Program-made: the position numbers and the translations under genes
Source of the DNA: an uncultured Selenomonadaceae bacterium
Lineage (GTDB): Bacteria; Bacillota; Negativicutes; Selenomonadales; Selenomonadaceae
NCBI GenBank assembly: GCA_905234365.1
Contig: CAJOHI010000002.1
Span: 1-42,569, forward strand
Direction: 5' to 3'
DNA: 42,569 nucleotides
The notes under the pieces: generated by a model
Databases searched by the model: none
The model's input: only the letters and a program-made list of their open reading frames with translations
Told to the model about the DNA's origin: nothing
Part shown: one piece after another, positions 6,318 through 29,945 of the stretch
How the letters are laid out: each line of letters starts with the position of its first letter
Numbering within the stretch: position 1 is the first letter of the stretch

Positions 6318-7631
6318 TTAATCAATGCAAGGACAAGCCGGCTTATCAAAGTATTGACTGATAATTTTAACCGCGCAATATTCGCCGCACATTGAACAGG
6401 CTTCTTCAGTAGAATCATTACGGGCGCTGCGTTTTGCCTTTGCAAGTTCAGGATCAATGGCAAGCTGCATTTGTGCTTCCCAATCCAAAACCTTGCGAGC
6501 ACGAGCCATTTTTAAATCCCAATCGCGAGCGCCTTTTACACCTTTGACAATATCGGCAGCATGTGCAGCAATTCGCGAAGTTATAACGCCGTCATGTACA
6601 TCTTGAATGGTCGGCAACGCCAAATGTTCCGCCGGTGTTACGTAACAGAGAAAATCAGCACCACTGACCGCCGCAAGTGTTCCGCCAATCGCCGCCGTAA
6701 TGTGGTCATATCCAGGCGCCACGTCAGTTACAAGCGGACCGAGAACGTAAAACGGAGCATTACGACAGAGCCGCTTTTCCAATTTCATATTTGCTTCAAT
6801 TTGATCGTAAGGCACATGTCCAGGACCTTCAACCATAACTTGCACGCCACGCCGCCAAGCTCTATCAACAAGTTCTCCGAGAGTTATCAACTCTGTGAGC
6901 TGTCCTCTATCTGTTGCATCAGCAATACAGCCAGGTCTCATTCCATCGCCAAGACTAATTGTCACGTCATATTTTTCGCAAATATCAAGAATATCATCAT
7001 ACCGCTCAAGAAGCGGATTTTCTTTTTCATTGTGAAGAATCCAAGCTGCAATAAATGAACCGCCACGACTTACAATGTCCATTTCACGTTTTTGACGGCG
7101 CATTTTCTCGATTGCTTCACGTGAAACACCACAATGTAACGTCATAAAATCGGCACCGTCTTTTGCTTGTACCTCGATAGTTTTCAGTAAATCTTCTTCT
7201 GTCATCTCAACAACAGCGCCATGTTTTTGAATTGCTCTGACAGTAGCTTGATAAATTGGAACTGTACCTACCATAATTGTAGAATTTTTGATAATTTCAA
7301 GGCGTGATTTATCAATATTGCTTCCCGTCGACAAATCCATAACGGAATCGGCACCACATTTTATAGCTTCATCAAGTTTTGTAAGTTCAGGTTCAATATC
7401 AGGAAATTTACTTGAAGTTCCTATATTTGCATTAACTTTAGTACTTAGACCTTCACCAACTCCGCAAGGTTTTAATGAGGTATGGTTTATATTTGCACAA
7501 ATTGCGATAATTCCTCTAGCTACACCTTGACGAATTTGTTCAACAGGTAAATTTTCCTGTTCTGCTACAATTTTCATCGCCTCAGTAATTTTACCTTCAC
7601 GAGCCATTTGCATTTGAGTTGCCAAAATCAT
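6318..7631 (-). CDS. thiC: Phosphomethylpyrimidine synthase
   Basis: This protein of about 437 residues is the radical-SAM enzyme that rearranges aminoimidazole ribotide to hydroxymethylpyrimidine phosphate, the pyrimidine half of thiamine. The short bacterial form without a long N-terminal domain is seen. Conserved blocks include SLKPCGVGEGLSTKVNANIGTS, GADSVMDLSTG, SRGGSF, EGPGHVPYDQI and YVTPAEHL, and the C-terminal cluster motif CSMCGEYCAVK ligates the 4Fe-4S centre. The start is uncertain: GTG 7634, ATG 7631 and TTG 7625 are in frame, and the GGGGTG element lies so close that TTG 7625 has the best spacing. It is the last gene of the thi operon and ends 3 bases from the convergent ABC ATPase gene. 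One parS-like site lies inside it. Confidence 0.95.
   Translation of the reverse strand: MILATQMQMAREGKITEAMKIVAEQENLPVEQIRQGVARGIIAICANINHTSLKPCGVGEGLSTKVNANIGTSSKFPDIEPELTKLDEAIKCGADSVMDLSTGSNIDKSRLEIIKNSTIMVGTVPIYQATVRAIQKHGAVVEMTEEDLLKTIEVQAKDGADFMTLHCGVSREAIEKMRRQKREMDIVSRGGSFIAAWILHNEKENPLLERYDDILDICEKYDVTISLGDGMRPGCIADATDRGQLTELITLGELVDRAWRRGVQVMVEGPGHVPYDQIEANMKLEKRLCRNAPFYVLGPLVTDVAPGYDHITAAIGGTLAAVSGADFLCYVTPAEHLALPTIQDVHDGVITSRIAAHAADIVKGVKGARDWDLKMARARKVLDWEAQMQLAIDPELAKAKRSARNDSTEEACSMCGEYCAVKIISQYFDKPACPCID
7113..7128. other. parS-like site 1 (inside thiC)
   Basis: The 16-mer TGCTTCACGTGAAACA differs at one base from the ParB site consensus known from Bacillus subtilis (TGTTTCACGTGAAACA). 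It lies in coding sequence for a V-S-R-E-A stretch, so codon choice could have produced it by chance, but it shares 13 identical bases with the sites at 15767 and 20028. Confidence 0.5.
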
Positions 7632-7679
7632 CACCCCAATATAAAAATAGTAAATTCATAAAGAACGTTAATTTTAAAA

Positions 7680-8279
7680 TTACCAATCTTTAAAATAATC
7701 ATCAATATTTTCGCATTGCATTGGACCACTCATCACGCAAACGGCACTTGCTCCAGCTTTAAATATGGAATTAACATTGTCTTTATTGATACCTCCGATA
7801 GCATAAACTGGAATTGTAACATTACTTATAACTTCTTGAAAGAAATCCAGACCTCTCGGCGGTAAATTTTTTTTGCTGAGTGTGTCAAAAATATGACCGG
7901 CAATTACATATGTACAGCCGACGGATTGCGCTTTTCGGGCTTCTTCTGCTGAGTGGCAAGATGCACCAATTTCATGAAATTTTTCCTTATCTTCACTGCT
8001 CATAATCCTAAGCATTTGAAAAGTCATATGTATCGCGTCGGCTTTGAGTTTTAAAGCTGTATCAACAAAATTGTGAAAAATTAAAGGTACATCTTCTTTT
8101 TTACAAATTTTTAAAACATTTTTTGCTATATCTTCATATTCTATTTCAGTTAAGTCTTTTTCACGGAGTAGTATTGCTTTTGGTTTATATTTAACAATTT
8201 TTTCAATACGATTGAAAATATCTTCAGTACAAAGATGACGATTCGTCACGCAAATTAATTTTTGAATATTTGATTTCAT
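7680..8279 (-). CDS. ThiE/TenI-family protein, probably thiazole tautomerase (TenI-like)
   Basis: This 199-residue TIM-barrel protein belongs to the ThiE/TenI family. It would usually be named thiamine phosphate synthase, but the loop reads AGHIFDT with a His at residue 129, where ThiE has Gly-Pro; TenI of B. subtilis uses a His in this GHVF-like loop to aromatise the thiazole made by ThiG. The following NLPPRGLDF also matches the TenI-type KKGVPARGL segment. The ThiE phosphate and pyrophosphate residues (NDR.D, HLGQ.DL) are replaced by HNFVD and HMTFQML. I therefore infer tautomerase activity, with ThiE elsewhere. Its Shine-Dalgarno GAGGTG overlaps the thiH stop region, so the two are translationally linked. 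Confidence 0.75.
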   Translation of the reverse strand: MKSNIQKLICVTNRHLCTEDIFNRIEKIVKYKPKAILLREKDLTEIEYEDIAKNVLKICKKEDVPLIFHNFVDTALKLKADAIHMTFQMLRIMSSEDKEKFHEIGASCHSAEEARKAQSVGCTYVIAGHIFDTLSKKNLPPRGLDFFQEVISNVTIPVYAIGGINKDNVNSIFKAGASAVCVMSGPMQCENIDDYFKDW

Positions 8280-8288
8280 CTTGACACC

Positions 8289-9539
8289 TCACACATAGAG
8301 ATAATCATTAAGTACAGGTTGTAAACCTTCTTTTGTCATATCGTCATACATCTTTTTAAAACTTCGGTTATCAGCAATTTCAAATTGTTCATCACCAAAA
8401 TTTTCAACATTTTTGCCGTTATATTTGCTTTCATGATCTCCAATTCCTGTTGAAACTCCAGCAGAAATTTTAGTTGCCGCAATTTTGACGATACCATTGC
8501 GAAATGAAGCACTTTCACGCGAAGAAACAGTAATGCCGACAAATGGCAGAAAAATTCTATAAGCACAAAGTATCTGACAAAGTTGACGTTCGCCAACATC
8601 TAACGGATTGATTTTATCGTTGTTAATGATAGGCCGCAATCTTGGACAGGATAACGAAAATTCTGCATGCGGATATTTTTTTTGTAAATAATATACGTGA
8701 AGTGCTGTAGCTAAGGCATCGCGCCTAAAGTCAGCCAAACCTAAAAGAGCTGAAAATCCAACACCTCGCATTCCTGCCATCAATGCTCTTTCTTGTGCCT
8801 CAAAACGGTAAAGAAATACACGCTTATGACCAGCAAGATGAAGTTGTTCATAACGATCTGAATCATAAGTCTCTTGAAAAATCGTTACATAATCGGCGCC
8901 ACATTCATGAAGATACTTATAATCTTCGACATTAACAGGATAAATTTCAAGACCGACATTGCGAAAATATTTTTGTGCTAATTTACAAGCTGTACCTATA
9001 TATTTTACGTCACTTTTTGAATGGCTTTCACCAGTTAAAATTAAAATTTCTTCCATGCCACTATCGGAAATAATTTTCATTTCATGTTCAATCTGTTCAT
9101 AGGTCAACTTCATTCGCTTAATATCATTATAACAGTTGAATCCGCAATAAACACAGTAATTCTCACAATAGTTAGCAATATACAACGGTGTAAATAAGTA
9201 AATCGTGTTTCCAAAATGTTTTGAGGTTTCCTGACTTGCTCGTTGTGCCATTTGTTCCAAAAAAGATTCAGCCGCCGGTGATAGTAACGCCTTGAAATCT
9301 TCAATGGTACAGGTTTCATGCTCCAATGCAGTTTTGATATTTTTAGTTGTATAGCTAGAATAATTATAATTTTGGACTTGTTTTAAAACTTTACTTTGAA
9401 TATCTGACTTAATCTGTTCCATATCCGGCAAATATTCCAAATGATTTGAACGTGACATTGGATTTGTTTCAAGTTCATGTTTTTTATTTAAAACATTCAT
9501 TGGCAAGGTTTTTGAGTCAACATAAAATTGATTTTTCAT
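8289..9539 (-). CDS. thiH: 2-iminoacetate synthase (radical SAM)
   Basis: This 416-residue enzyme splits tyrosine to dehydroglycine (2-iminoacetate) for thiazole formation by ThiG, the anaerobic alternative to glycine oxidase ThiO. The radical-SAM cluster motif CENYCVYC has its cysteines at about residues 125, 129 and 132. Family blocks include ALEHETCTIEDFKALLSP before it and LTGES, LEIYPVN, YQETYD-like FQETYDSDRYEQLH and RLRP after it. There are about 45 more N-terminal residues than in E. coli ThiH; the start at 9539 is kept because TAGGTGAAC lies right before it and internal Met codons lack a ribosome site. Anaerobic metabolism of the host is implied. Confidence 0.94.
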   Translation of the reverse strand: MKNQFYVDSKTLPMNVLNKKHELETNPMSRSNHLEYLPDMEQIKSDIQSKVLKQVQNYNYSSYTTKNIKTALEHETCTIEDFKALLSPAAESFLEQMAQRASQETSKHFGNTIYLFTPLYIANYCENYCVYCGFNCYNDIKRMKLTYEQIEHEMKIISDSGMEEILILTGESHSKSDVKYIGTACKLAQKYFRNVGLEIYPVNVEDYKYLHECGADYVTIFQETYDSDRYEQLHLAGHKRVFLYRFEAQERALMAGMRGVGFSALLGLADFRRDALATALHVYYLQKKYPHAEFSLSCPRLRPIINNDKINPLDVGERQLCQILCAYRIFLPFVGITVSSRESASFRNGIVKIAATKISAGVSTGIGDHESKYNGKNVENFGDEQFEIADNRSFKKMYDDMTKEGLQPVLNDYLYV

Positions 9540-9592
9540 AAGTTCACCTATAAAATTTAGTTTTTTATATTAAATTATCGGTTATATATTAA

Positions 9593-10366
9593 TTAATCGT
9601 GTAAAAAGCCAGTTAATGGATCAGAAGCAGAAGCACCGCGAATTAATACTCTGCCTAATCCTGCAAGATAAGCCTTTCGACCGGCTTCAATAGCTTGACG
9701 AAACGCCGAAGCCATAATTGGTAGATTACCTGCCGTTGCAAGTGCAGTATTTGCCATTATTGCTGCTGCTCCCATTTCCATTGCTTCACATGCTTGCGAA
9801 GGTCTTCCTATTCCTGCGTCCACAATTATGGGCAGTTCTATCTCATCAATCAAAATTTGAATAAAATCTTTTGTTGATAGGCCTTTGTTTGAACCAATCG
9901 GTGCAGCTAAAGGCATTACAGCAGCCGCTCCGACATTGACTAGTTCACGTGCAACATTAAGATCTGGATACATGTAAGGCATTACTATAAAGCCTTCAGC
10001 CGCTAAAATTTCTGTAGCTTTAATCGTTTCGTAATTATCCGGCAGAAGATATTTTGAGTCCTTCATAATCTCAATTTTTATAAAGTTGCCGCAACCAAGT
10101 TCACGTGCTAATTTTGCAATTCTGACAGCTTCTTTGGCATCACGAGCACCTGAAGTATTTGGTAACAAAGTAACATTTTTAGGTATATAATCAATAATAT
10201 TTTCATGCTCTTTAGTGTTTGCACGCCTAACTGCAACTGTAATAATTTCCGAACCGGCATCACGAATGGCAGCTTCAATCAATTTCATCGAATATTTTCC
10301 AGAACCTAAAATAAATCTTGAGTTAAATTCGTGATTTCCAATAATCAATTTATCGTTATTTTCCAT
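9593..10366 (-). CDS. thiG: Thiazole synthase
   Basis: This 257-residue TIM-barrel enzyme builds the thiazole phosphate ring from deoxyxylulose phosphate, 2-iminoacetate and ThiS thiocarboxylate. The Schiff-base Lys is in FIKIEIM (about residue 97). [41 protein letters not shown] and [10 protein letters not shown] are typical. The frame opens at a TTG that overlaps the Shine-Dalgarno; the true start is ATG at 10366, preceded by TGGAGGT. It lies 53 bases upstream of thiH and follows thiS. Confidence 0.95.
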
Positions 10367-10419
10367 ATATACCTCCAAAATTTAAATATAATTATGTTTT
10401 TAAAATTATAGTTTGAATT

Positions 10420-10623
10420 TTAAATCATAGTACCGCCACCCATAAAAGTTATAATTTCAATTATATCGCCATCTTTTATAATTGTATTTTGATATTGTTC
10501 CTTTTCAATAATTTTTTCGTTAATTTCAACTACAATTATTCGTGTATCGTAATTAGCAGCATGGAGATAGTCTCTAAGATTTTTTCCAGCTATATCTTCA
10601 TTTTTGCCATTAATTTGCACCAT
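10420..10623 (-). CDS. thiS: Sulfur carrier protein ThiS
   Basis: This 67-residue ubiquitin-like sulfur carrier is the first gene of the riboswitch-controlled operon. It ends ...EIITFMGGGTMI. ThiS normally ends exactly in Gly-Gly so that the last carboxylate can be adenylated by ThiF and thiolated; here three residues (Thr-Met-Ile) follow the glycines. It would need trimming, or the tail may be a mutation. The frame can also start at a GTG that overlaps the GAGGTG ribosome site; ATG 10623 with 9-base spacing is better. No thiF is in the cluster. Confidence 0.88.
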   Translation of the reverse strand: MVQINGKNEDIAGKNLRDYLHAANYDTRIIVVEINEKIIEKEQYQNTIIKDGDIIEIITFMGGGTMI

Positions 10624-10636
10624 AAACAATTTCACC

Positions 10637-10668
10637 TCAAAAAATTAGAGACCACCTACGTAGTCTCT
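10637..10668 (-). terminator. Riboswitch-controlled terminator before thiS
   Basis: Read on the minus strand, AGAGACTAC pairs with GTGGTCTCT (9 bp with one G-U) around a GTAG loop, followed by AATTTTTT. It lies between the TPP aptamer and the thiS ribosome site. Its left arm contains CTACGT, which can pair with ACGTAG at the 3' edge of the aptamer (10685-10690), so terminator and antiterminator are mutually exclusive. Confidence 0.85.
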
Positions 10669-10678
10669 TCAAAAAAGT

Positions 10679-10762
10679 TTATTCCTACGTCGGCATTATC
10701 CGAATCAGGTCAAATGGTCGAAGGTTATACCTTCCTCTCAGCCTGTATTACAAGCTCCCAAA
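10679..10762 (-). promoter_or_regulatory. TPP riboswitch (THI element)
   Basis: On the minus strand the conserved THI-box parts appear in order: GGGAGC, GGCTGAGAGGAAGG, ACCTTCGACC, TTGACCTGATTCGGATAATG and CCGACGTAGGAA. These match the pyrimidine-sensing CUGAGA and the pyrophosphate-sensing ACCUGA...GGAUAAUGCC...CGUAGGRA cores of the TPP aptamer. A TATAAT box sits just upstream at 10772-10777. When TPP binds, the terminator at 10647-10668 should form and shut off thiS-thiG-thiH-tenI-thiC. Confidence 0.95.
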
Positions 10763-10841
10763 TATTTCATTATTATACATAATTTCTAAAGCTAAATGAC
10801 TATTAAAATTATAAAATATTATTAAAAATATTACAATAGAT

Positions 10842-12245
10842 TTAAAAAAACTTGTTGTCGCTTTTCACATATCCAGCATTACTTTGCCATGTGTAATTAG
10901 CCTCTAAATTGCGAAATTTATGATAAGAATTAAAATCCATTAAGGCACGCTTAAATTCTGCACCTGATTGAACGACTTCAATTTTTGACGTTGGAAATAT
11001 GTTTTTAATTTCGTTAAGTGTTACATCATCAAGGAAAATATCCTCACCATTTCTTAAAGCTGATTCTGGAATTAATATACCATCTCGGCTACCTTTAACG
11101 GATTTCAGAGTATTTATAATGTCAATTCCGGTTAAAAGTCCAGAAACGTTTACTGTGCTTCCAAAAAATTCATTGACAACCGGTAAAATACGGACAATCA
11201 GATTATTTTTTTGGATCATTGCTTCATTTGCCAAATTTTTTAAAACATCTGCAATTGAAGTTCCAGAAATAACATCAATTTTTATCGGCTTTGTATATTC
11301 AACTGAATTTACAACCTCATTTTGCCAGTCAGTGATAAAACTACGTGTTAATCCAATTCCATTGTCAAGTTGAGGATAATCATCATAAAATTCATCAGGT
11401 GGAATTTTACGATTTGCAAGAAAATAAAACTCATCACCAAGATAGATAAAAGTCTTGCCAATTTCAGAACGCAATTTTTTTTGCCAAACTTCGACTTGAT
11501 CGATAACTTTAATGGCACCTTCACGATCAAATTGGTTCAATTTAAATTTATCGCGACGATGTTTAGTAATTCCAACAGGTACGATCGCAAGCGATAAAAT
11601 ATGCGGCTGCCGTTTAATGAGTTCAGAGATAGTAAATTCTAATTCATTGCCATCATTGAGACCTGAACAAAGAACAATTTGTGTATGATATTCGGCACCA
11701 GCAGCCTCAATTTTGTCAAGGTGTTCTGAAATTTTGGCAGCAAGAGGTGTTCTTAGCATTTCAACTCTTAATTTTGGATTCATTGTATGCACTGAAATAA
11801 ATAGTGGTGACAAGTGAAATTGCTCAATTCGTTTAAAATCATTATCAGTCAAATTTGTTAGTGTTATGAAGTTTCCATAAAGAAATGACATTCGATAATC
11901 ATCGTCTTTAATAGAAAGAGTTTTACGCATTTTTGGAGCAATCATATCGACAAAACAAAATACACAATGATTTTTGCAGACACGTATTCCATCAAATACC
12001 GAACTTTCAAATTCGACGCCTAATTCTTCATCAACATCCTTATCGAAAGCGATTAGCTCTTGTTCTCCGTTGCTGTGTTCAATCAACAACTCAATTTCTT
12101 CTTCAGCAAATTCAAAACTCAAATCTATAATGTCTAACAGTCTTTTACCATTAACTTCAATAATTTGATCGCCAACTTTTAAATCCAGTTCTTCAGCTAA
12201 ACTATTAGGATATACTTGCGTAATTTTTCCTTTATAAATTTTCAT
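10842..12245 (-). CDS. DUF512 / PDZ-containing radical SAM protein
   Basis: This protein of about 467 residues has three parts: an N-terminal PDZ-like domain (residues 1-65, with NSLAEELDLKVGDQIIEVNG), a radical-SAM-like segment with CKNHCVFCF (Cys at about 90, 94 and 97), and the C-terminal DUF512 region with DEFYFLA, GIGLTRSF and GTSIADVL. The family is common in anaerobic Firmicutes, and no reaction is established to my knowledge. The frame opens at 12329, but ATG 12245, behind TTGGTGATG, gives the family N-terminus MKIYKGKI. It is transcribed divergently from the MetH-activation gene. Sequence between its end and the riboswitch (about 80 bases) shows only AT-rich DNA. Confidence 0.88.
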   Translation of the reverse strand: MKIYKGKITQVYPNSLAEELDLKVGDQIIEVNGKRLLDIIDLSFEFAEEEIELLIEHSNGEQELIAFDKDVDEELGVEFESSVFDGIRVCKNHCVFCFVDMIAPKMRKTLSIKDDDYRMSFLYGNFITLTNLTDNDFKRIEQFHLSPLFISVHTMNPKLRVEMLRTPLAAKISEHLDKIEAAGAEYHTQIVLCSGLNDGNELEFTISELIKRQPHILSLAIVPVGITKHRRDKFKLNQFDREGAIKVIDQVEVWQKKLRSEIGKTFIYLGDEFYFLANRKIPPDEFYDDYPQLDNGIGLTRSFITDWQNEVVNSVEYTKPIKIDVISGTSIADVLKNLANEAMIQKNNLIVRILPVVNEFFGSTVNVSGLLTGIDIINTLKSVKGSRDGILIPESALRNGEDIFLDDVTLNEIKNIFPTSKIEVVQSGAEFKRALMDFNSYHKFRNLEANYTWQSNAGYVKSDNKFF

Positions 12246-12261
12246 AACATCACCAAATTTC

Positions 12262-12300
12262 TTGACATGTATTTTTCTAATATTATATATTATATTAGAA
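12262..12300 (+). promoter_or_regulatory. Candidate promoter with overlapping inverted repeat
   Basis: TTGACA (12262-12267) and TATATT (12286-12291) are 18 bases apart on the + strand. A perfect 9-bp inverted repeat, TTCTAATAT...ATATTAGAA (12275-12300), covers the -10 box. The site lies between the divergent DUF512 and MetH-activation genes and could be an operator for either. The leader of about 150 bases to 12458 shows no riboswitch I recognise. Confidence 0.45.
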
Positions 12301-12457
12301 ATTAAGTCTTTTTTAAATGTATAAGACATAAAAAATTTTCAATTTATATAAAAAAAACATCCATTTTTACGATTTTTAAAATGTACTTTATTTTTTAATA
12401 AAACTTTACATAATTTATATGTATAATTTAAATTTCCTTAATTAAGGAGTCATTAAA

Positions 12458-13132
12458 ATGCCAATATATAATGCACAGTTATTAGAGATTGATCCTCAAG
12501 AAACTCGACGTTATGCCGGTTTACGCAATGCAAAGAATTTTGACGAACAAAATATATTAGAAGCCTGCGAAGATGCAAAACTTTTAATTGAAGTTCGTGG
12601 AATTTGGAAAATGTACAATTATGACAATATAAATCAAATGATACTGAGTGAACCGCCTGTTATTATTGAGGGTAAATCCATCGGTAAACATTTAGAGTCT
12701 TGTGACAAGGTTATTTGTATTGCCGCAACTATTGGTGAAAAAATCGAACAAGAAGTTACAAACAGATTCAAAAATGGCAAATACGTTTCTTCAATGCTTC
12801 TTGATGCAGCCGCTACTACTGCCGTTGAACAAGTTGCTGATCTAATGGAGAAGGCAATAGCTCAAAAGGTAGCTAAGGATGGTTATACAATGCTCTGGCG
12901 ATTCAGTCCAGGTTATGGAGACTGGCCATTGACTCAACAAACAGATTTATTTAAACTTGCCGGCGCCGAAGAAATTAAAATGCAACTCTCTTTTGCTATG
13001 ATGATGATTCCAAGAAAGTCAATTACAGCAATTATCGGTCTAGTTAAAAATAGTGTTAATGTAAAAAAAATTGAGATGAAACATAATTGTACAGCTTGTT
13101 ATAAGATTGATTGTCCAGCTCGTCAAATTTAG
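12458..13132 (+). CDS. Stand-alone methionine synthase (MetH) activation-domain protein
   Basis: This 224-residue protein corresponds to the C-terminal reactivation domain of cobalamin-dependent methionine synthase. RFSPGYGDWPLTQQ matches the SAM-binding R-x-x-x-G-Y motif of that domain. The domain binds AdoMet to reductively remethylate oxidised cobalamin, and here it would work in trans with a truncated MetH encoded elsewhere. The C-terminus has a Cys cluster, HNCTACYKIDCPARQ, which is common in these free-standing versions and could bind metal. ATG 12458 follows TTAAGGAG. rsmG starts 27 bases downstream, so the two are probably one transcript. Confidence 0.85.
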   Translation: MPIYNAQLLEIDPQETRRYAGLRNAKNFDEQNILEACEDAKLLIEVRGIWKMYNYDNINQMILSEPPVIIEGKSIGKHLESCDKVICIAATIGEKIEQEVTNRFKNGKYVSSMLLDAAATTAVEQVADLMEKAIAQKVAKDGYTMLWRFSPGYGDWPLTQQTDLFKLAGAEEIKMQLSFAMMMIPRKSITAIIGLVKNSVNVKKIEMKHNCTACYKIDCPARQI

Positions 13133-13159
13133 ATTAAATTTATTAACAGGAGATATATC

Positions 13160-13873
13160 ATGTTTATTGAAGAATTTCAAAAAATTGTAAAAAAAACAAG
13201 TTATACATTTAATAATGAACAATTAATGCAATTAGAACGCTTTTATGATTTACTCATTGAATGGAATAAAAAAATTAATCTTACTGCTATAACGGAGCCA
13301 AAAGATTTTATTATCAAACATATAATTGATTCCGTTTCAATTTGGGATAATAAAAAATTCGCTGAGACTGAAAATATAATTGATATTGGCACAGGTGCAG
13401 GTTTTCCAGGTATACCATTAAAAATTTACAAACCGGATAAAAAAATTGTTTTACTTGATTCTTTAGACAAAAGAATTAGATTTTTGCAAACTGTAACTAA
13501 AAAACTGGAATTTAAAGATATTTTTTTAATACATAGTCGAGCAGAAGATGCAGCGCATAATTTTGAACTTCGCGAAAATTTTGATTTATGCGTCTCACGT
13601 GCGGTTGCTAAATTAAATGTTTTGGCGGAATATTGTTTGCCTTTTGTTAAAGTTGGTGGATATTTTGTTGCCATGAAAGGCGCAAGTATTGACAATGAAT
13701 TAAAAGAAGCTGAAAGGTCAATAGATATACTTGGTGGTTCTAATATTGAATGCAATAATATAAAATTGCCAAATGGAGATAACAGGAATTTAATATACAT
13801 TAAAAAATTTTCTAATTCTCCAAATAAATTTCCAAGAAAAGCAGGCATACCAGATAAAAAGCCTCTAATTTGA
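13160..13873 (+). CDS. rsmG: 16S rRNA (guanine527-N7)-methyltransferase
   Basis: This 237-residue Rossmann-fold methyltransferase modifies G527 in the 530 loop of 16S rRNA. The N-terminal helix has WNKKINLTAI and KHIIDSVS, the AdoMet motif IDIGTGAGFPGIPLKI lies at about 74-89, and SRAVAKLNVLAEYCLPFVKVGG and the AMKG segment are also diagnostic. ATG 13160 follows AGGAGA. In most Firmicutes this gene follows mnmG near the origin; here mnmG is about 20 kb away and rsmG sits with the MetH-activation gene. A hairpin overlaps its stop codon. Confidence 0.94.
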   Translation: MFIEEFQKIVKKTSYTFNNEQLMQLERFYDLLIEWNKKINLTAITEPKDFIIKHIIDSVSIWDNKKFAETENIIDIGTGAGFPGIPLKIYKPDKKIVLLDSLDKRIRFLQTVTKKLEFKDIFLIHSRAEDAAHNFELRENFDLCVSRAVAKLNVLAEYCLPFVKVGGYFVAMKGASIDNELKEAERSIDILGGSNIECNNIKLPNGDNRNLIYIKKFSNSPNKFPRKAGIPDKKPLI

Positions 13874-13885
13874 GAGGAAATTTTT
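13862..13885 (+). terminator. Hairpin overlapping the rsmG stop codon
   Basis: CCTCT (13862-13866) and AGAGG (13873-13877) form a 5-bp stem around AATTTG, followed by AAATTTTT. It would terminate the rsmG transcript while using the stop codon in its loop and arm. The stem is short. Confidence 0.45.
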
Positions 13886-13948
13886 AACTCAAGTCGAATA
13901 TTTGAAAAATTAAAAGTATTTAAGTTAAATTTATAGTAGGTGGCTGAA

Positions 13949-15127
13949 ATGAAATTAAGACATAAATGTATAATCGGAGTTACGGCTATATCTATGCTTT
14001 TTGCAATGCCATCATCTTTTGCTGCAGAAGATGATGTGGTTATATTTGGAAATGAATTTGATGATAAAACCGAATCGCAAAAAAATAAAGTATCATCAAC
14101 ACCAGTTAATAAACCAATTACAACCGAAGATAATTCTAAAGAAGATATTAAGGAAAATAATGAAAATCATTATGAAGATAGCACGAATGTTGATTCAGAT
14201 GAAAATTCCGTTTCGATTGAGGAAATACCTGATGATATTTCAACCAATGATTTGAACAATGAAAATATTGTTGTTGATGATTACGAAATAGGCGAAATAA
14301 TTAAATTTAACGAAATTAAAAATGACAACAATATTTTTGATGAAAATTTAAATCAAATTGAAAACTCTAATTTTGAAAATATTGATAGTATACCTGAAAA
14401 TATTATCGACAATATAGATGATGATTCATTGTACCTTGAAAAAAATGATAATTACAATACTAAAGAAGATAGAAAAGACGATATTATTATTCCAAATTTA
14501 AGCAGTACAAATGATGTTACAAATAATAAAATTAATCATTTTGAAGAAAAAAACAATCATACTGATGATTCTCAACGAAATCAGAAAAAAATTAAGGCAC
14601 GTTTTATAAAATTATTAAGTGATGATACTTACGACTACTATTTGGATCGAAATACTGTTCGTTGGATTAGTATTCCATATTCAACCAGTGAATATATGGC
14701 CGATATTTGGATTAGAATGATTGAAAAAAATCAGACAAAAGATGAAAATATGCCTAGTGATCTATATGATTATGTCAATGAAATTGATGATGAAATTACA
14801 GACGCAGCTGCTAAAGGCATCGTATATGATGAAGTTGATGTAAAAGTACTTCGTACAAAAAAATATTTTCTTGAACATTATTACATCAGACCTAAAACAG
14901 AACAAATCCAATTTCTTTGTGAGTTAGAAGTTGTTGGTCGTCCGCAAAATGCTATTTCTGAACGAACTTATGATTATAAAAATTGGGAATCTTTAATTCC
15001 CGGCAGTATAGAATTTTCAATATATCATGGAGTCTTGTCAAATATAGGTAAAGGTAAGGCTTCAAAACGTGGACACATGACTGTTGTAGATATGATTGAT
15101 GAGTATGCTCGTATAGCATTAAATTAA
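13949..15127 (+). CDS. Secreted acidic Asn/Asp-rich protein of unknown function
   Basis: I do not recognise this 392-residue protein. It begins with a signal peptide (about residues 1-26, basic start, hydrophobic core and an SFAAED cleavage region). Residues of about 30-205 are low-complexity, rich in Asn, Asp, Glu and Ile, and probably disordered. The C-terminal part (about 210-392) is a folded domain with YDYYLDRNTVRWI, a Trp-containing strand ADIWIRM and NWESLIPGSIEFSIYHGV near the end. This resembles small secreted domains of Negativicutes and, loosely, the product at 16556-17050, which also has SYYLD. The frame opens at GTG 13940, but ATG 13949 behind AGTAGGTGG is preferred. It probably acts in the periplasm or at the cell surface. 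Confidence 0.75.
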   Translation: MKLRHKCIIGVTAISMLFAMPSSFAAEDDVVIFGNEFDDKTESQKNKVSSTPVNKPITTEDNSKEDIKENNENHYEDSTNVDSDENSVSIEEIPDDISTNDLNNENIVVDDYEIGEIIKFNEIKNDNNIFDENLNQIENSNFENIDSIPENIIDNIDDDSLYLEKNDNYNTKEDRKDDIIIPNLSSTNDVTNNKINHFEEKNNHTDDSQRNQKKIKARFIKLLSDDTYDYYLDRNTVRWISIPYSTSEYMADIWIRMIEKNQTKDENMPSDLYDYVNEIDDEITDAAAKGIVYDEVDVKVLRTKKYFLEHYYIRPKTEQIQFLCELEVVGRPQNAISERTYDYKNWESLIPGSIEFSIYHGVLSNIGKGKASKRGHMTVVDMIDEYARIALN

Positions 15128-15164
15128 CGAAAACAAACTATGTTGAAAATTTTTATAAATGTTC

Positions 15165-15193
15165 TTGACAATTTTATAAAAAGGCAGTATAAT
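15165..15193 (+). promoter_or_regulatory. Sigma-70-type promoter of the tRNA-Val genes
   Basis: TTGACA (15165-15170) and TATAAT (15188-15193) are both perfect consensus boxes with the ideal 17-base spacer. The first tRNA begins 22 bases after the -10 box. Confidence 0.9.
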
Positions 15194-15214
15194 TTTACTT
15201 GTCTTGAGGGACGT

Positions 15215-15291
15215 GGGGTTATAGCTCAGTTGGTTAGAGTGCCTCGTTGACATCGAGGAGGTCACAGATTCGAGTTCTGTTAACCCCACCA
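15215..15291 (+). tRNA. tRNA-Val (anticodon GAC)
   Basis: A 77-base cloverleaf with the CCA end encoded. The acceptor arms GGGGTTA/TAACCCC pair fully, the D-loop has AGCTCAGTTGGTTAGAG, and the anticodon stem CTCG/CGAG encloses TTGACAT, giving anticodon GAC. The T-arm has GATTCGAGTTC. Confidence 0.93.
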
Positions 15292-15303
15292 TTTTTGTTT
15301 TAT

Positions 15304-15379
15304 GCTCACTTAGCTCAGTTGGTAGAGCATCTCCGTCACATGGAGGAGGTCGGGGGTTCGAGTCTCTCAGTGAGCACCA
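15304..15379 (+). tRNA. tRNA-Val (anticodon CAC)
   Basis: A 76-base cloverleaf with the CCA end encoded. The acceptor arms GCTCACT/AGTGAGC pair, the anticodon stem CTCC/GGAG encloses GTCACAT, giving CAC, and the T-arm has GGTTCGAGTC. It lies 12 bases after the first tRNA-Val and shares its promoter. A CAC valine tRNA reads GUG only. Confidence 0.9.
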
Positions 15380-15419
15380 ATTTTGAAAATTAAAAATTTA
15401 ATTTTGTAGTATTATACTT

Positions 15420-15447
15420 CGTCGCTATGGACTGTAGCGGCGTTTTT
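15420..15447 (+). terminator. Terminator after the tRNA-Val pair
   Basis: CGTCGCTA (15420-15427) pairs with TAGCGGCG (15435-15442), 8 bp with one G-U, and TTTTT follows directly. The azlC gene starts 21 bases later. Confidence 0.85.
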
Positions 15448-15467
15448 AGTTTTATGCAGGAGTTTTT

Positions 15468-16190
15468 ATGACAAAAAGTGATGAAAAATTAATAACTAAT
15501 AAACAAGCACTTAGTGAAGGTTTAAGAGATGGTATACCTATAGGTCTCGGTTATTTTGTAGTTGCATTTACTTTAGGTATAGCTGCAAAAAATGCAGGAT
15601 TAACACCTTTTCAGGGTTTTTTGACAAGTTTTTTAAATAATGCTTCGGCTGGTGAATATGCTGCATTTACAGTTATAGCTGCTGATGCTTCGTATTTGGA
15701 AATGGTGTTAATAACTTTAGTCGCCAATGCACGTTATATGTTGATGAGTACAGTTTTAAGTCAAAAGTTTTCACGTGAAACACCATTCTATCATAGAATT
15801 TTAGTAGGTTTTGATGTAACAGATGAAATTTTTGGAATTACAGTTTCAAGAAATGGATTTTTAAATCCTTTTTATAACTATGGTGCTATGTTAGTTGCTT
15901 TGCCAGGTTGGTCTATAGGTACAGCTTTAGGAATTATGGCAGGTAATATATTGCCGACTTCTGCCGTAAGTGCTTTAAGTGTTGCTTTATATGGAATGTT
16001 CCTTGCTGTGATAATTCCACCGGCTAAAAGTGATAGAACTATAGCCTTAACTGTAGCTGTCAGTTTCATTTTGAGTTTTATTGCTTCATATATGTTTGAT
16101 AATATTTCAGCAGGAACACGAACTATCATATTGACAATATTGATTGCCGGACTAGCGAGCATAGTTTGTCCTGTACATGATAAAAAATGA
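15468..16190 (+). CDS. azlC: AzlC-family branched-chain amino acid exporter subunit
   Basis: This 240-residue membrane protein is the large subunit of the AzlCD exporter for branched-chain amino acids or their analogues. EGLRDGIPIGLGYFVVAFTLGI at the N-terminus (shown here only as a family hallmark), FLNNASAGEYA and NARYMLMS are typical. There are about 7-8 hydrophobic segments. ATG 15468 follows GCAGGAG. azlD begins 16 bases after its stop. Together with leuB-ilvB it gives the window two branched-chain amino acid loci, which are not adjacent. A parS-like site lies inside this gene. Confidence 0.92.
   Translation: MTKSDEKLITNKQALSEGLRDGIPIGLGYFVVAFTLGIAAKNAGLTPFQGFLTSFLNNASAGEYAAFTVIAADASYLEMVLITLVANARYMLMSTVLSQKFSRETPFYHRILVGFDVTDEIFGITVSRNGFLNPFYNYGAMLVALPGWSIGTALGIMAGNILPTSAVSALSVALYGMFLAVIIPPAKSDRTIALTVAVSFILSFIASYMFDNISAGTRTIILTILIAGLASIVCPVHDKK
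15767..15782. other. parS-like site 2 (inside azlC)
   Basis: GTTTTCACGTGAAACA matches 14 of 16 bases of the B. subtilis ParB site; the mismatches are the first two bases. The inner 12-mer TTTCACGTGAAA is a perfect palindrome. Its right 13 bases are identical to the sites at 7113 and 20028. Confidence 0.5.
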
Positions 16191-16205
16191 GGTATAACTA
16201 TAAAA

Positions 16206-16514
16206 ATGACACATGAAATTTATATTTACATTGCTGTGATGAGTATAGTAACGCTAATGATTCGCATATTACCATTAACATTGATTCGTCACGAAATAAA
16301 AAATCGTCATCTCCGCTCATTTTTATATTATGTACCATACGTAACTTTAGCGGTGATGACTTTTCCGGCAATATTAAATTCAACACAGTCACAAATATCT
16401 GGTGGACTTGCACTTATTGCTGGAATTTTAGCTGCGTGGTTTGGTGCAAGTTTGTTTCAAGTTTCCTCGTTATGCTGTATAATCGTCTTTATAACTGAAT
16501 TATTTATGTTATGA
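16206..16514 (+). CDS. azlD: AzlD-family branched-chain amino acid exporter subunit
   Basis: This 102-residue protein with four hydrophobic segments is the small partner of AzlC. The start MTHEIYIYIAVMSIVTLMIR, RILPLTLIR and FLYYVPYVTLAVMTFPAIL are typical of AzlD. It is in the same operon as azlC, 16 bases downstream. The next gene is convergent. Confidence 0.9.
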   Translation: MTHEIYIYIAVMSIVTLMIRILPLTLIRHEIKNRHLRSFLYYVPYVTLAVMTFPAILNSTQSQISGGLALIAGILAAWFGASLFQVSSLCCIIVFITELFML

Positions 16515-16555
16515 TTATAAAATTTGATTTTATCCTTTATTTTTTATGATACAAT

Positions 16556-17050
16556 TTAAATATTTGGCAATTCTTTAAAAGCAGCTTCATAACCAACTTT
16601 GAAACATTTAAACATAAATTCTCTATCTTCTTCGCTTTGTATATCATTAATTTTATTTTTATTATGATTTGAATTATAAGCATTTTTTCCGTCAAAATAA
16701 AATTTTTGTGCCTTAGATCTTGAATTAGAAGGCATAATATTTGCACCTATTGGAAATATAAATTGACTCCAACTTCGTACAGTGGAGTTATTTTTTTTGA
16801 TTTTTATTGAATAGCAGTCAAGGTAATAACTGAGACTCTTGTAACTTCCTATGAAAATATAATTTTTATCAGTAACAGGCACTTCCTGCGATTTTTGATT
16901 TTGTATTTCTTTAGATTCAGATTCGTTTTCCTTTGACGTTTCATTAATAATAACTTTTGGTAAGTCATAAGCATTTGTAACGCTATTTACACAAAAAAAA
17001 CAAGCAAGCACTATTTTAACTATAAAGATTTTTATCAATTTTTTTGACAT
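16556..17050 (-). CDS. Small secreted protein of unknown function
   Basis: This 164-residue protein starts with a basic, hydrophobic signal peptide (about residues 1-27, ending near SVTNAYD). A polar, Glu/Lys-rich linker follows to about residue 55, then a folded part with YIFIGSYKSLSYYLDCYSIK. The SYYLD strand and the mixed beta pattern resemble the C-terminal domain of the secreted protein at 13949-15127, so the two may be distant relatives. I know no function. It follows the YopX gene with one base between stop and start, so both are one transcription unit. Confidence 0.7.
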   Translation of the reverse strand: MSKKLIKIFIVKIVLACFFCVNSVTNAYDLPKVIINETSKENESESKEIQNQKSQEVPVTDKNYIFIGSYKSLSYYLDCYSIKIKKNNSTVRSWSQFIFPIGANIMPSNSRSKAQKFYFDGKNAYNSNHNKNKINDIQSEEDREFMFKCFKVGYEAAFKELPNI

Positions 17051-17051
17051 T

Positions 17052-17507
17052 TTATTTAGCGCCTCTCTTTTTTTTAGCTTTCGTAGATTGCTTTTTTGAA
17101 TCGTCCTCTATAAATTCAGGATTTTCAAAAATATTACCGATAACTTTCATTTGCCACTTGCGAACATCTGCAAGAAATTTTGGAATTTTATCTTTGCCAA
17201 TGCGAAGGACAAAAGCACCGCGAAAAAAACTTACAACGCCTAGATTGCCATCATCTAATTTGATAATATCATCTTCGTAAATTTCATTTCCGCTACTATC
17301 AAAAAAACCTGTAAATTGTCCGATAGTTTTAGAATCAACACGATAACCTTCATAACCATTTTCATATACAAAAATATGTGCTTGTGGACCTGGATCTCCG
17401 TAAGTACCACGTTTCAAAAAGAATCCATAAATCCATACTTGTTTGATCTCACCACTAAAAATTTGAAAAGTTTTCAATCCACGATATTTAATCTCTCTTT
17501 CTGCCAT
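17052..17507 (-). CDS. YopX-family protein (phage-type)
   Basis: This 151-residue protein shows the YopX-family pattern: an N-terminal IKYRGLKTF, a central TIGQFTGFFDSSGNEIYEDDIIKL, and GVVSF followed by VIGNIFENPEF. YopX was first seen in the SPbeta prophage and the family is usually found in phages and mobile elements; its role is unknown to me. The last 15 residues are Lys-rich. No other phage gene is next to it, so it is either a remnant or a domesticated copy. It lies between a AAA/DUF4143 ATPase (upstream) and a small secreted protein (downstream), all on the minus strand. Confidence 0.85.
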   Translation of the reverse strand: MAEREIKYRGLKTFQIFSGEIKQVWIYGFFLKRGTYGDPGPQAHIFVYENGYEGYRVDSKTIGQFTGFFDSSGNEIYEDDIIKLDDGNLGVVSFFRGAFVLRIGKDKIPKFLADVRKWQMKVIGNIFENPEFIEDDSKKQSTKAKKKRGAK

Positions 17508-17549
17508 AAATAAACACCTTCAATTTTTTAAGTTATGTTAAAAAAATGT

Positions 17550-18749
17550 TTAAATATCATCAATTATAAAGTCAAAAATGTTTAAAACCTTTATACCATT
17601 ATAATCATTAATTTTTGGATAATCCATAGTTAAAATTATTTTATCGTACTGATCTTGAATGCGTTGAAGTGCGTTAAGTGCCTTTTTTAGCCTTTTTTTG
17701 TCTTCGGTTGTTGATATTACTTGCAGATACATCGGTTTAGAATCTTTTAATGCAACAAAATTAACTTTCATACTACCAATTTTACCAATAAAAAGTTCAT
17801 AATTTTGCTGAAAAAGTTTTATACAAAGTATGTTTTCCAACAAAAATTCATTTTCCAAGTCATTAAAGTTCGTAAGAACATTACGAAGACCTAAATCTGA
17901 GCAATAGAAACGTTCAGAACCATTTATTTTGCTTTTGTTTTTTATGTCATACCTTGAAATTTTTTTAAATAAACCGGATTCATCAATCATACCAAGATAA
18001 TTTTCCATTGTATAACTGGTCGTATTAAAACCAATACTTTTAAGATAATCATTAATGACTTTAGGTGTTATAGCCTGACCGATATTTATTGCTAAAAATT
18101 TATTTATTGAATTGAGCAAACTTACATCTCGAACACCATATCGAGCAATAATATCCTTATTTAATATGGTGTTATACATTCCAGACAACAAAGCGGGTAA
18201 AATGTCCTCATTTTTAATCGACTTCATTACAACAGGCAGTCCACCAAATTTCAAATATTTTTTAAAACTTGTTTCAATCTGATTAGAATTGCCGTCAGAA
18301 ATAATTTTAGTGTAATTATCAAATGAAACTGACTGCATTTTAATCAATTCGTAACGCTCAGAAAGAAGATGCAAAAATTTTTTTGAAAGTATACCGGAAT
18401 TTGAACCTGCAATATAAATATCTACAGGTGAACCTACAAAAAATGCGTTAATGGCTTTTTCCCAACCATTCACTCGTTGTACTTCATCTAAAAGCAAATA
18501 GGCTTGTTCAAGATAAGCAATTTTTTCACTAACAAATTCATAAAGTTGTTGAAAATCGAAAATTTCTTCCTGTTCCTCAAAATTTATGTAAATAATTTGT
18601 TCAGCAGACACACCGGATTTTTCCAAAGTTGCAGCAAATGTGTGCAATAATTTTGTTTTGCCAACGCCACGAATGCCAGTAATAACTTTTACTGAAAAAT
18701 CATCTTTACTTTGCAGCAATTTTTCCAAGTATACTTTATTATTTATCAT
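17550..18749 (-). CDS. AAA ATPase with DUF4143 domain (copy 1)
   Basis: This 399-residue protein has the AAA_14 plus DUF4143 architecture. Walker A is GIRGVGKT at about 25-32, Walker B is YLLLDEVQRV at about 84-93, and the sensor-like strand is YIAGSNSGILSK. The C-terminal half (about 200-399) is DUF4143, with MENYLGMIDESGLFKKISRYD and a nuclease-like LKDSKPMYLQVISTT segment. Proteins of this class are widespread and mostly uncharacterised; some are thought to act in toxin-antitoxin or DNA-related roles. A second copy lies at 22977-24185. It starts 42 bases upstream of the YopX gene on the same strand. Confidence 0.85.
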   Translation of the reverse strand: MINNKVYLEKLLQSKDDFSVKVITGIRGVGKTKLLHTFAATLEKSGVSAEQIIYINFEEQEEIFDFQQLYEFVSEKIAYLEQAYLLLDEVQRVNGWEKAINAFFVGSPVDIYIAGSNSGILSKKFLHLLSERYELIKMQSVSFDNYTKIISDGNSNQIETSFKKYLKFGGLPVVMKSIKNEDILPALLSGMYNTILNKDIIARYGVRDVSLLNSINKFLAINIGQAITPKVINDYLKSIGFNTTSYTMENYLGMIDESGLFKKISRYDIKNKSKINGSERFYCSDLGLRNVLTNFNDLENEFLLENILCIKLFQQNYELFIGKIGSMKVNFVALKDSKPMYLQVISTTEDKKRLKKALNALQRIQDQYDKIILTMDYPKINDYNGIKVLNIFDFIIDDI

Positions 18750-18899
18750 TATTTTTCACTCCAAACAGCTTTTACTTTAACTAATAGAGTTGTTTCACGC
18801 AATAATATAATTTATCTAATATTTTATATTATTTTGTTATTTTTTGCAAGTATAGAAGGAAAATTAAAATTTTCGGCGAATTATGAAGTAAAATTAATT

Positions 18900-18919
18900 A
18901 GTATATTTGATAGTATACT
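18900..18919. repeat. Inverted repeat upstream of the galM-like gene
   Basis: AGTATA (18900-18905) and TATACT (18914-18919) are perfect arms around TTTGATAG, 47 bases before the galM-like start. It could be a small operator. The rest of the 217-base region between the ATPase and galM starts is AT-rich with no other signal I can support. Confidence 0.35.
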
Positions 18920-18966
18920 TGAGAAAAATGTGATTTATCTTGTGATCGAAGAAAGGAGTTAATTTT

Positions 18967-19848
18967 ATGTTGTATACCTTAGAAAATGGTATCCTTAAAA
19001 TAACGGTTAATGATTATGGTGCAGAGTTAAAGTCAATAACCGGAATTTCTGATGGTACAGATTATCTTTTCGACGGCAATCCTCAATGGTGGAAATATAC
19101 TTCACCGGTACTCTTTCCAATTGTAGGTAAACTTGTAAACGGAAAATATCGTATTGACGGTAAGGAATATAATCTGCCAGGTCATGGTTTTGGTCGAATT
19201 TCTAATTATAATTGCATTCGTCAAGCGGATGATGAAGTCGTATTCGCTCTTGATTGGAGCAACGAAACTTTAAAGAGCTATCCTTTTAAATTCCGACTCG
19301 AAATTGCCTATATTTTACATGAAAATCGCGTTGAAATTATTTGGACTGTCAAAAATGTCGATGACAAAATTATGTATTTTTCAATCGGCGCACATCCTGC
19401 CTTAAAATGTCCAATCGTTGCCGGTGAAAAATTTGAAGATTGCTATTTGAAATTCAACGTTTCTGAAAAATGTTCGCGTATACCAATTGATATGAAAAGC
19501 GGTGCACTTACTCACAAACGTATCCCGACTATTGACGGCAAAGAATTGGATTTAAATTACGAACTCTTTAAAGGCGATGCGTTGGTATTCGACGATTTAA
19601 AATCCGATGAAGTGTCAATTTGTTCTCGTAAAAGCAGCAAATCTATTACACTTAAAGCAAAAGGTTTTCCATTTTGGGGAATTTGGACGCCGGATAAAGG
19701 TGGCGCACCATTCCTATGCATTGAGCCTTGGCATGGTCACGCTGATTTCATTGACTTCAAAGGAGAATTCAGCGAAAAAGACGGCATCAGATCATTACCT
19801 GCCGGTGAATCTTTCGACGCAGGTTACAGCTTCATAATTCAAGAATAG
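18967..19848 (+). CDS. Aldose 1-epimerase family protein (LacX/GalM-like)
   Basis: This 293-residue beta-sandwich protein belongs to the galactose mutarotase superfamily. Active-site features are visible: His at about 73 in PGHGFGR, a second His in IGAHPAL, and the catalytic-type Glu in CIEPWHG near the C-terminus. It would interconvert sugar anomers in the cytoplasm. The sequence is closer to the LacX-like branch than to classical GalM, so the true sugar is open. ATG 18967 follows AAAGGAG. It stands alone on the + strand, between the minus-strand ATPase unit and clpB. Confidence 0.9.
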   Translation: MLYTLENGILKITVNDYGAELKSITGISDGTDYLFDGNPQWWKYTSPVLFPIVGKLVNGKYRIDGKEYNLPGHGFGRISNYNCIRQADDEVVFALDWSNETLKSYPFKFRLEIAYILHENRVEIIWTVKNVDDKIMYFSIGAHPALKCPIVAGEKFEDCYLKFNVSEKCSRIPIDMKSGALTHKRIPTIDGKELDLNYELFKGDALVFDDLKSDEVSICSRKSSKSITLKAKGFPFWGIWTPDKGGAPFLCIEPWHGHADFIDFKGEFSEKDGIRSLPAGESFDAGYSFIIQE

Positions 19849-19975
19849 ACTTTATCATTGAACAATATTAACAAAAAATTTAACGTCATATAGAATAGTA
19901 AAAATTTTTCTACATGTCAATAAAAATATATCTATCGTTTAATATTAATTTTTTGTGATTCGAATAAGCAAAAAA

Positions 19976-20022
19976 GGCGCTTTTATACTTAAGGTTATAA
20001 TTTACCTTGAGCAAAAAGCGTC
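19976..20022. terminator. Bidirectional terminator between galM and clpB
   Basis: GGCGCTTTTATACTTAAGGT pairs imperfectly with ACCTTGAGCAAAAAGCGTC (20004-20022), giving a long stem. On the minus strand the stem is followed by a T-run (AAAAAA at 19970-19975 on +), so it should end the clpB transcript; it can also stop galM. Confidence 0.65.
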
Positions 20023-20027
20023 AAATA

Positions 20028-20043
20028 TTTTTCACGTGAAACA
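20028..20043. other. parS-like site 3 (intergenic)
   Basis: TTTTTCACGTGAAACA differs from the B. subtilis ParB site at one base (position 2). It lies in the non-coding space between the ends of galM and clpB, right after the shared terminator, so no protein constraint explains it. It is the most convincing of the three sites. Confidence 0.65.
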
Positions 20044-22727: not shown

Positions 22728-22810
22728 ATATATCACTCCAATCTAAGAGTTAAAGTTAATTTCAATTATTACAGCGTTTTTTCGCCGTCGAAAGTATACT
22801 AACACATAAA

Positions 22811-29876: not shown

Positions 29877-29945
29877 AAAGAAGACAGGTCACAATCAATA
29901 TAGTGACCTTACCTTCTTTTGAAAAGTCGCAAAGAGGGTTGTAAT

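Follow-up and report, generated by a model that had tools for sequence, protein, structure and literature searches.

The closest described counterparts of the sequences considered here are the chromosomal ParABS systems known from Bacillus subtilis and from Caulobacter, in which Spo0J/ParB pairs with parS; they are similar in the 16-bp palindrome, in the HTH residues of ParB and in the ParA-ParB gene pair. The roles of the residues by which ParB reads parS (R173, N178, G201 and R204) are taken from Jalal 2020, where R173 and G201 are given as absolutely conserved in extant ParB, and positions 1 and 6 as those that distinguish the Noc binding site (NBS) from parS. A second counterpart is the parS-noc-parAB locus of other Negativicutes families, in which all 23 genomes searched carry one to three sites within one mismatch. 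These sites lie at parAB in the five cases examined and approximately 15-18 kb from dnaA in the four genomes measured. DnaA-independent replication is described in cyanobacteria, where free-living species either have no dnaA or retain a dispensable one, the GC skew is irregular, and the authors link this independence to many chromosome copies (Ohbayashi 2020, PMC7198777). The Clostridia endosymbiont RsTa-C01, a Firmicute whose host is a termite-gut protist, is reported to lack dnaA and to have an atypical GC skew (PMC10579323).

The window, i.e., the whole stretch of 42,569 nucleotides that was analysed, belongs to an assembly of 148 contigs (2.3 Mb, 89% complete; G000 below). Named loci identify the genus as Quinella, the large rumen ovals. 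A preliminary description had reported three 16-mers sharing a 13-mer, with one, two and one mismatches to the B. subtilis parS consensus, and the recount agrees. The 13-mer TTCACGTGAAACA occurs in exact copies at 7116-7128, 15770-15782 and 20031-20043, and the 16-mers (Table 1) differ from the palindrome TGTTTCACGTGAAACA at one (site 1), two (site 2) and one (site 3) positions. On the forward strand, their right half is perfect and their left edge varies, as had been observed. It was also correct that one copy is intergenic, because the sites starting at 7113 and 15767 fall within genes and the one starting at 20028 falls in a convergent gap. The thi cluster of the window contains a TPP riboswitch.

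Table 1. Features of the window, with coordinates counted from its first letter.
Feature	Positions	Strand	Sequence	Basis or context
parS-like site 1	7113..7128	+	TGCTTCACGTGAAACA	inside thiC, codons V-S-R-E-A
parS-like site 2	15767..15782	+	GTTTTCACGTGAAACA	inside azlC
parS-like site 3	20028..20043	+	TTTTTCACGTGAAACA	convergent gap, aldose-epimerase gene / clpB
thiC, host of site 1	6318..7634	-		NCBIfam NF009895 and TIGR00190 over cut-off
rsmG, within parS cluster	13160..13873	+		TIGR00138; in outgroup G050 adjoins noc-parS-parA-parB
azlC, host of site 2	15468..16190	+		Pfam PF03591
aldose-1-epimerase-like gene, adjoins site 3	18967..19848	+		Pfam PF01263
clpB, adjoins site 3	20112..22736	-		NCBIfam TIGR03346 over cut-off
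rnpA-yidC-jag-mnmE-mnmG block, ancestral origin marker	29919..35452	+		rnpA, mnmG by NCBIfam; rest from translations

The copies are far more numerous than chance allows, as had been claimed. Four matches to TGTTTCACGTGAAACA with up to three mismatches occur in the window against 0.45 expected, and none of 100 shuffles reached four. In the whole assembly, the 13-mer is found in four places, compared with about 0.10 per genome expected and none for the control, the reversed motif. A chance origin of the sites is ruled out by the shuffles, the reversed control and the expected counts. The genome-wide count proposed in the preliminary description, for which an even spread would have spoken against parS, revealed a cluster: three of the four places lie within 12.9 kb of the window (P ~4e-4 for random places). 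The fourth, on contig C55 at a D-Ala-D-Ala carboxypeptidase gene, is a perfect 16-mer with no mismatches. Weaker matches, with up to three mismatches, are mostly noise (27 places in the assembly against 21 for the control, and five against three at up to two mismatches). Since the reversed control yields roughly the same number, the three-mismatch site at 9941 and 21 others were dropped; the place at C112:352, with two mismatches and a broken core, was excluded from the count.

The genome encodes one ParB (193 bits, contig C9, near mutL), so that the lack of any ParB, which would also have counted against parS, did not occur. Its gene adjoins that of ParA (locus L011, 14584-15744 and 15713-16474 for ParB and ParA, respectively), and an ORF with a ParA Walker motif adjoins ParB in all 21 genus genomes that have it. 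The parAB pair, noted earlier as not in view, lies outside the window's contig. The protein retains Q162, G170, S172, R173, N178, G201 and R204, its closest solved structures are Spo0J (6sdk) and ParB (6t1f), and it has the GERR motif of the CTP box. It is the only TIGR00180 match in G000; no Noc was found there with this model, which detects the Noc of G050 at 174.8 bits. With no Noc found in the genome and the CACGTG core intact as in parS, Noc binding sites were ruled out. The sites of the window are thus well supported, at the level of sequence, as predicted parS of a ParABS system with relocated genes.

A palindrome with a CACGTG core might alternatively serve as the operator of a transcription factor. 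Such a role would suit the two sites that lie within or close to genes of biosynthesis and transport, as well as the riboswitch of the thi cluster. It is extremely improbable, as two of the three sites are buried deep within reading frames, and thiC, azlC, the epimerase/clpB gap and the carboxypeptidase gene on C55 have no common pathway. The same motif occurs at parAB in other families, and within the genus, sites within one mismatch track ParB, being present in 8 of the 21 genomes with it and in 1 of the 39 without. The claim that the sites are parS-like is upheld by this last figure, by their clustering, by the reading residues of ParB and by the thiC site, which two relatives retain in place.

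In those relatives, the thiC site occupies the same codons, as a perfect 16-mer in G082 and with two mismatches in G028. The close relatives G032 and G071, whose thiC can be aligned, have lost it (five and six mismatches), and the remaining 25 of 30 thiC genes differ at seven to ten positions. Part of this loss is protein divergence, because most of the 25 more distant genes encode V-T-R-A/S in place of V-S-R-E. The 16-mer of site 3 is also found in G081, 398 bp past the same epimerase gene. Related sites occur in G061, beside a homologue of the C55 neighbour, and in G007, just past thiE.

The sites had been taken to mark the origin region, in agreement with the rpmH-mnmG block. This view is borne out in part. 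The sites have rsmG in their midst, and the rnpA-mnmG block is 10-23 kb away from them, but dnaA, dnaN and parAB of G000 are located on C15, C1 and C9, respectively, none of them on the window's contig. No DnaA-box cluster was found in the window (three boxes against 8.3 expected), for which reason an origin inside it was rejected. The total GC skew of the window flips its sign with gene direction. The window may be the place of an earlier origin that is no longer in use.

The distribution of the machinery was followed in 60 genomes of the genus, all of them fragmented, multi-contig assemblies of 1.3-3.5 Mb and 59-100% completeness. DnaN was found in 56, full DnaA in 10 and ParB in 21, and in the 15 genomes with a completeness of 90% or more the counts are 15, 2 and 7; the other 50 of the 60 have no DnaA over the cut-off. 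The DnaA of G000 is full-length and an orphan; the dnaA genes that survive in the genus are not linked to dnaN and carry changes in a DNA-reading motif. Four weak matches in DnaA-negative genomes were sent to Pfam and rejected: those of G063 and G034 are IstB/DnaC-like AAA proteins, which also weakly match the DnaA ATPase domain, that of G022 is a DUF4406-DnaA_C fusion and that of G006 is RadA-like. A 239-aa ORF of G003 has no family match. Sites within one mismatch are present in 7 of 10 genomes with DnaA versus 2 of 50 without it (6 versus 1 when an intact 10-base core is also required). One genome, G032 (85% complete), has DnaA and a perfect site and no ParB match over the cut-off. These associations are nested in the tree (DnaN, 56 genus rows; G001, G002, G009 and G020 have no DnaN), and the independent-pairs test is uninformative, without power, because only two pairs fall on supported branches.

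Such losses could be artefacts of assembly or binning, with working parS in ordinary species whose origin region assembles badly, and the fragmentation of every genome searched is in keeping with this. It is very unlikely, however, as DnaN is recovered in 56 of the 60 genomes, and in all of the most complete ones, where DnaA appears only twice. If completeness is used as the detection probability of a gene, the probability that DnaA was missed in all 50 has a log10 P of -44.9. Moreover, G003 (100% complete) has mnmG-mnmE-jag-yidC-rnpA, recF-dnaN and gyrB on a single contig without dnaA, and G034, G035 and G072 have dnaN-recF with other neighbours.

The weak strand skew, which is independent of gene content, also speaks against an artefact. 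The replication-strand GC skew of Quinella is weak or absent, unlike that of its relatives: the median replication part of GC3 skew is 0.051 in G000 (above 0.1 at 4 of 13 loci) and 0.025-0.029 in other Quinella, compared with 0.189 in Selenomonas/Mitsuokella and 0.232 in other families. Loci whose third-position counts were too low on one of the strands, or whose length was unsuitable, were dropped (8 of 20 from other families, 3 of 16 from G000, 5 of 23 from other DnaA-positive genomes, and 2 of 20 and 1 of 23 in the DnaA-negative sets). The DnaA-negative set includes L263, which matches no genome searched for DnaA, and two loci from G071, a member of the DnaA-positive clade. L277 was assigned to G016 and the unassigned L279 left out; the lists also leave out L227, with a value close to zero, L231, which is one-stranded, and two loci of other families with high values, L224 and L225. 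Of the signs of DnaA-independent replication, G000 shows the slight strand skew, and does not show the absence of dnaA.

The sites might also be what is left of an earlier parS array in decay, with ParB now working elsewhere or with relaxed specificity. Only one of the four is perfect, 13 of the 21 genus genomes with ParB have no site within one mismatch (the canonical reading residues are nevertheless present in 11 of them), and the reading residues are lost in the ParB of G060 and G076. This reading is unlikely given the persistence of four exact 13-mers where 0.1 would be expected, the perfect thiC site of G082 and the canonical reading head of the G000 ParB.

The explanation preferred here, with a probability of roughly 0.8, is that the three sites and the C55 site are parS of a ParABS system whose parAB has moved away, in a genus that is losing its DnaA/ParABS machinery and most likely copies its chromosome without a single DnaA-driven origin. 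ParB would load on the parS sites and spread and, together with ParA and probably SMC, would gather and separate the chromosome copies. The parAB pair lies beside mutL on another contig, while parS would have remained near rsmG, which adjoins it in other families. DnaA seems absent in most sampled species, ParB also in a large subgroup, and canonical parS appears rare. Judged from the scarcity of DnaA beside the near-universal DnaN, the rare parS, the weak skew and the unlinked, altered dnaA genes, most sampled Quinella appear to have given up initiation by DnaA at oriC, and many of them ParABS too. Erosion has gone less far in the species of the window, which keeps an orphan dnaA and a seemingly intact ParABS. 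Copying independent of one DnaA-driven origin may be possible because the large cells contain many chromosome copies.

Quinella cells live freely in rumen fluid. It is probable that Quinella consists of free-living heterotrophs and that most of its species dropped the DnaA-oriC start and then, stepwise, parS and ParAB, with large, probably polyploid cells making precise initiation and centromere segregation dispensable. The intermediates would be species with DnaA, ParB and parS (the window), species without DnaA that keep ParB, mostly without canonical parS, and species with neither protein. The sites themselves are ordinary parS, and their significance lies in where they are kept and where they are lost. 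If the proposal is true, a genus with such staged species would test the order in which the replication initiator and the centromere are given up, and whether such a loss is made possible by cell size and chromosome number. No paper joining Quinella and dnaA was found in the published literature searched, and the terms dnaA, ParB, replication and ploid do not occur in the paper on the Quinella genomes, as judged from its main text. According to Ohbayashi 2020 (PMC7198777), reports of free-living species lacking dnaA had been confined to cyanobacteria, and the titles and abstract openings of the papers listed from 2020 on gave no other free-living case outside that group.

Compared with the ParABS of B. 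subtilis and Caulobacter, parAB is here not close to the sites, the four sites are dispersed and two of them fall within genes, and relatives in the genus no longer have canonical parS, or ParB, or either of them. The parS-noc-parAB locus of other Negativicutes families (e.g., G050) has the identical parS sequence and rsmG as a common landmark; it differs in lying at parAB near dnaA, whereas in G000 parAB is next to mutL and Noc was not detected. RsTa-C01 shares with most sampled Quinella the apparent absence of dnaA and the atypical skew (PMC10579323), but it is endosymbiotic, whereas the Quinella assemblies searched span 1.3-3.5 Mb. Cyanobacteria share with Quinella a missing or seemingly unneeded dnaA and an irregular GC skew (PMC7198777). 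They differ in that Quinella belongs to the rumen Negativicutes, its ParABS is eroding as well, and its DnaA-independent replication is a proposal.

The three parS-like 16-mers of the window lie at the positions given in the preliminary description and share an exact 13-mer, as it claimed. Site 1 is located in thiC, site 2 in azlC and site 3 in the 263 bp that separate an aldose-epimerase gene from the convergent clpB. The whole assembly (2,300,897 bases, 148 contigs, 89% complete) has the 13-mer in four places, namely these three and a perfect 16-mer on contig C55, versus approximately 0.1 expected from base composition; the reversed 13-mer, used as a control, occurs in none. The probability of three of four random places falling within 12.9 kb is around 4e-4. 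With up to three mismatches allowed, 27 places are found versus 21 for the control, and such looser matching brings in mostly noise. The sites are very likely parS. The window is at most a candidate for an active origin. Directly before site 3, the convergent gap holds a possible hairpin (GCGCTTTT...AAAAAGCG), read by eye. One of the two ATPase ORFs listed in the table is found near the same genes in some relatives.

Positions of the features in the window, the rest of the assembly and related genomes
Feature	Position	Strand	Remark
Site 1	window 7113-7128		
Site 2	window 15767-15782		
Site 3	window 20028-20043		
Possible hairpin	window 19975-20022		
TPP riboswitch	window 10664-10771	-	upstream of the thiamine gene cluster holding site 1
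Glycine/aspartate-rich repetitive ORFs	window 39420-41533		resemble RTX-type calcium-binding repeats, by eye
Two similar ATPase ORFs, ~400 aa	window 17550-18749 and 22977-24185		flank site 3 on either side
Fourth 13-mer place	C55:355-370		
ParB gene	C9:42102-42632		
239-aa ORF	L422 11159-11878 (G003:C17)		
DUF4406 fusion	L431 1646-2251 (G022:C35)		

A single ParB exceeds the family cut-off in the assembly (193 bits). Its gene on contig C9 is overlapped by that of ParA, with mutL beyond, and C9 has no place within three mismatches of parS. Aligned to Caulobacter ParB, the protein keeps Q162, G170, S172, R173, N178, G201 and R204, with R171, I179 and K184 alongside. Noc was not found in the assembly; its sole match to the TIGR00180 model, which is able to detect Noc since it matches that of the outgroup G050, is ParB.

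In other families, each of the 23 genomes searched has 1-3 sites within one mismatch, and sites lie at parAB in all five genomes examined. Unlike the parAB-linked layout of G050 (rsmG, noc, parS, parA, parB), the window has rsmG inside its parS cluster, and therefore parS seems to have stayed beside this old neighbour while parAB left. Site 1 occurs at identical thiC codons in two relatives, G082 (perfect) and G028 (two mismatches). Among the 30 thiC genes aligned, from 40 genomes with a match, this position has five mismatches in G032, six in G071 and 7-10 in the other 25, none of which comes from a genome with ParB over the cut-off; the protein also differs there in most of these 25. The site 3 16-mer recurs in G081, 398 bp beyond the same epimerase gene. 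In G007 a perfect site closely follows thiE, in G061 one lies next to a homologue of the C55 neighbour, and G082 has a two-mismatch site with an intact core within mnmE. Two further parS-like places with intact cores, G035:C16:191390 (three mismatches) and G019:C6:59036 (two), were observed some 21-22 kb away from the epimerase gene and are perhaps conserved trimmed parS of DnaA-negative species.

The genus is called Quinella here, since the named loci among the epimerase-gene matches come from Quinella sp. 1Q7, 1Q5 and 2Q5. All other genus loci belong to MAGs of Selenomonadaceae or Selenomonadales, many of them obtained from ruminants. According to the Quinella genome paper, the cells are large ovals with a length of 3-5 um, and in its main text the terms dnaA, ParB, replication and ploid never occur.

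Counted over one set of 60 genus genomes, DnaN, ParB and DnaA exceed the cut-off in 56, 21 and 10, respectively, and in 15, 7 and 2 of the 15 genomes with a completeness of 90% or more. Neither DnaA nor ParB exceeds it in the three named Quinella. If all genomes had DnaA and only incompleteness hid it, the log10 probability of the 50 misses would be -44.9. A parS within one mismatch is present in 7/10 DnaA-positive versus 2/50 DnaA-negative genomes (Fisher p 1e-5) and in 8/21 ParB-positive versus 1/39 ParB-negative ones (p 6e-4), both values being uncorrected for kinship; in two of the nine genomes with a site, G009 and G029, the only site has a changed core. A quick DnaN tree places 33 genomes in a clade lacking both DnaA and ParB, and nine in a neighbouring clade without DnaA, where ParB is kept in eight. 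The least numbers of changes for DnaA and ParB are 4 and 4, and an independent-pairs test alongside had too few pairs to be informative. Of all these steps, the apparent loss of DnaA across the genus, together with that of ParABS in many species, has the broadest significance. By analogy with cyanobacteria, we hypothesize that such loss may be linked to cells that are large or polyploid. Multiple DnaN copies of full or almost full length, which are unusual for bacteria, were observed in assemblies G015, G016, G021, G025, G026, G063, G064, G070 and G082 (the last 6% contaminated).

What does not fit is that 13 of the 21 ParB-positive genomes are without a site within one mismatch, the canonical reading residues being still present in 11 of them. 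The 12-mer core TTTCACGTGAAA is present in 10/21 ParB-positive and 6/39 ParB-negative genomes, so that trimmed parS sites may be used by some. In the ParB of G060 and G076 (L061, L060), encoded beside ParA, R173, N178, G201 and R204 are replaced by V/T, M, T and L/S; Jalal 2020 describes R173 and G201 as conserved without exception among present-day ParB proteins. G032 combines DnaA with a perfect site, yet has no ParB match over the cut-off.

The outgroups G040 and G041 have dnaA flanked by dnaN on one side and by the rnpA/yidC block on the other. G003 (100% complete; the earliest branch of the DnaN tree, but a long one) carries mnmG, mnmE, jag, yidC, rnpA, recF, dnaN and gyrB on one contig without dnaA. 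Its 239-aa ORF between dnaN and gyrB, which has no Pfam or NCBIfam match, is possibly a replacement factor or a chance neighbour. The neighbours of dnaA vary in the ten DnaA-positive genomes, dnaN is absent among those listed, and the best dnaN is on a different contig in all nine with a DnaN match. The DNA-binding-domain signature, which reads the DnaA box, is GGRDHTTV in the outgroups and altered in all ten genus DnaA: five carry [G/D][G/H]LNHTTV and the other five GK[R/K/H]DHATV. In G022, a DUF4406 domain was observed fused to the C-terminal, DNA-binding domain of DnaA, the DnaA ATPase being absent.

The third-position GC skew was divided into two parts, one due to gene direction and one due to replication. 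For the replication part, the median size is 0.232 in other families (12/20 stretches usable) and 0.189 in Selenomonas/Mitsuokella (10/10), 0.051 in the assembly of the window (13/16 loci, four over 0.1), 0.025 in other DnaA-positive Quinella (18/23), and 0.029 (18/20) and 0.025 (22/23) in two DnaA-negative sets. Mann-Whitney comparisons with other families give p between 8e-4 and 7e-6, loci of one genome not being independent. As the medians are low in the DnaA-positive sets too, these Quinella also have little skew. In this they resemble the cyanobacteria which keep dnaA without needing it and which, according to Ohbayashi 2020 (PMC7198777), show little skew.
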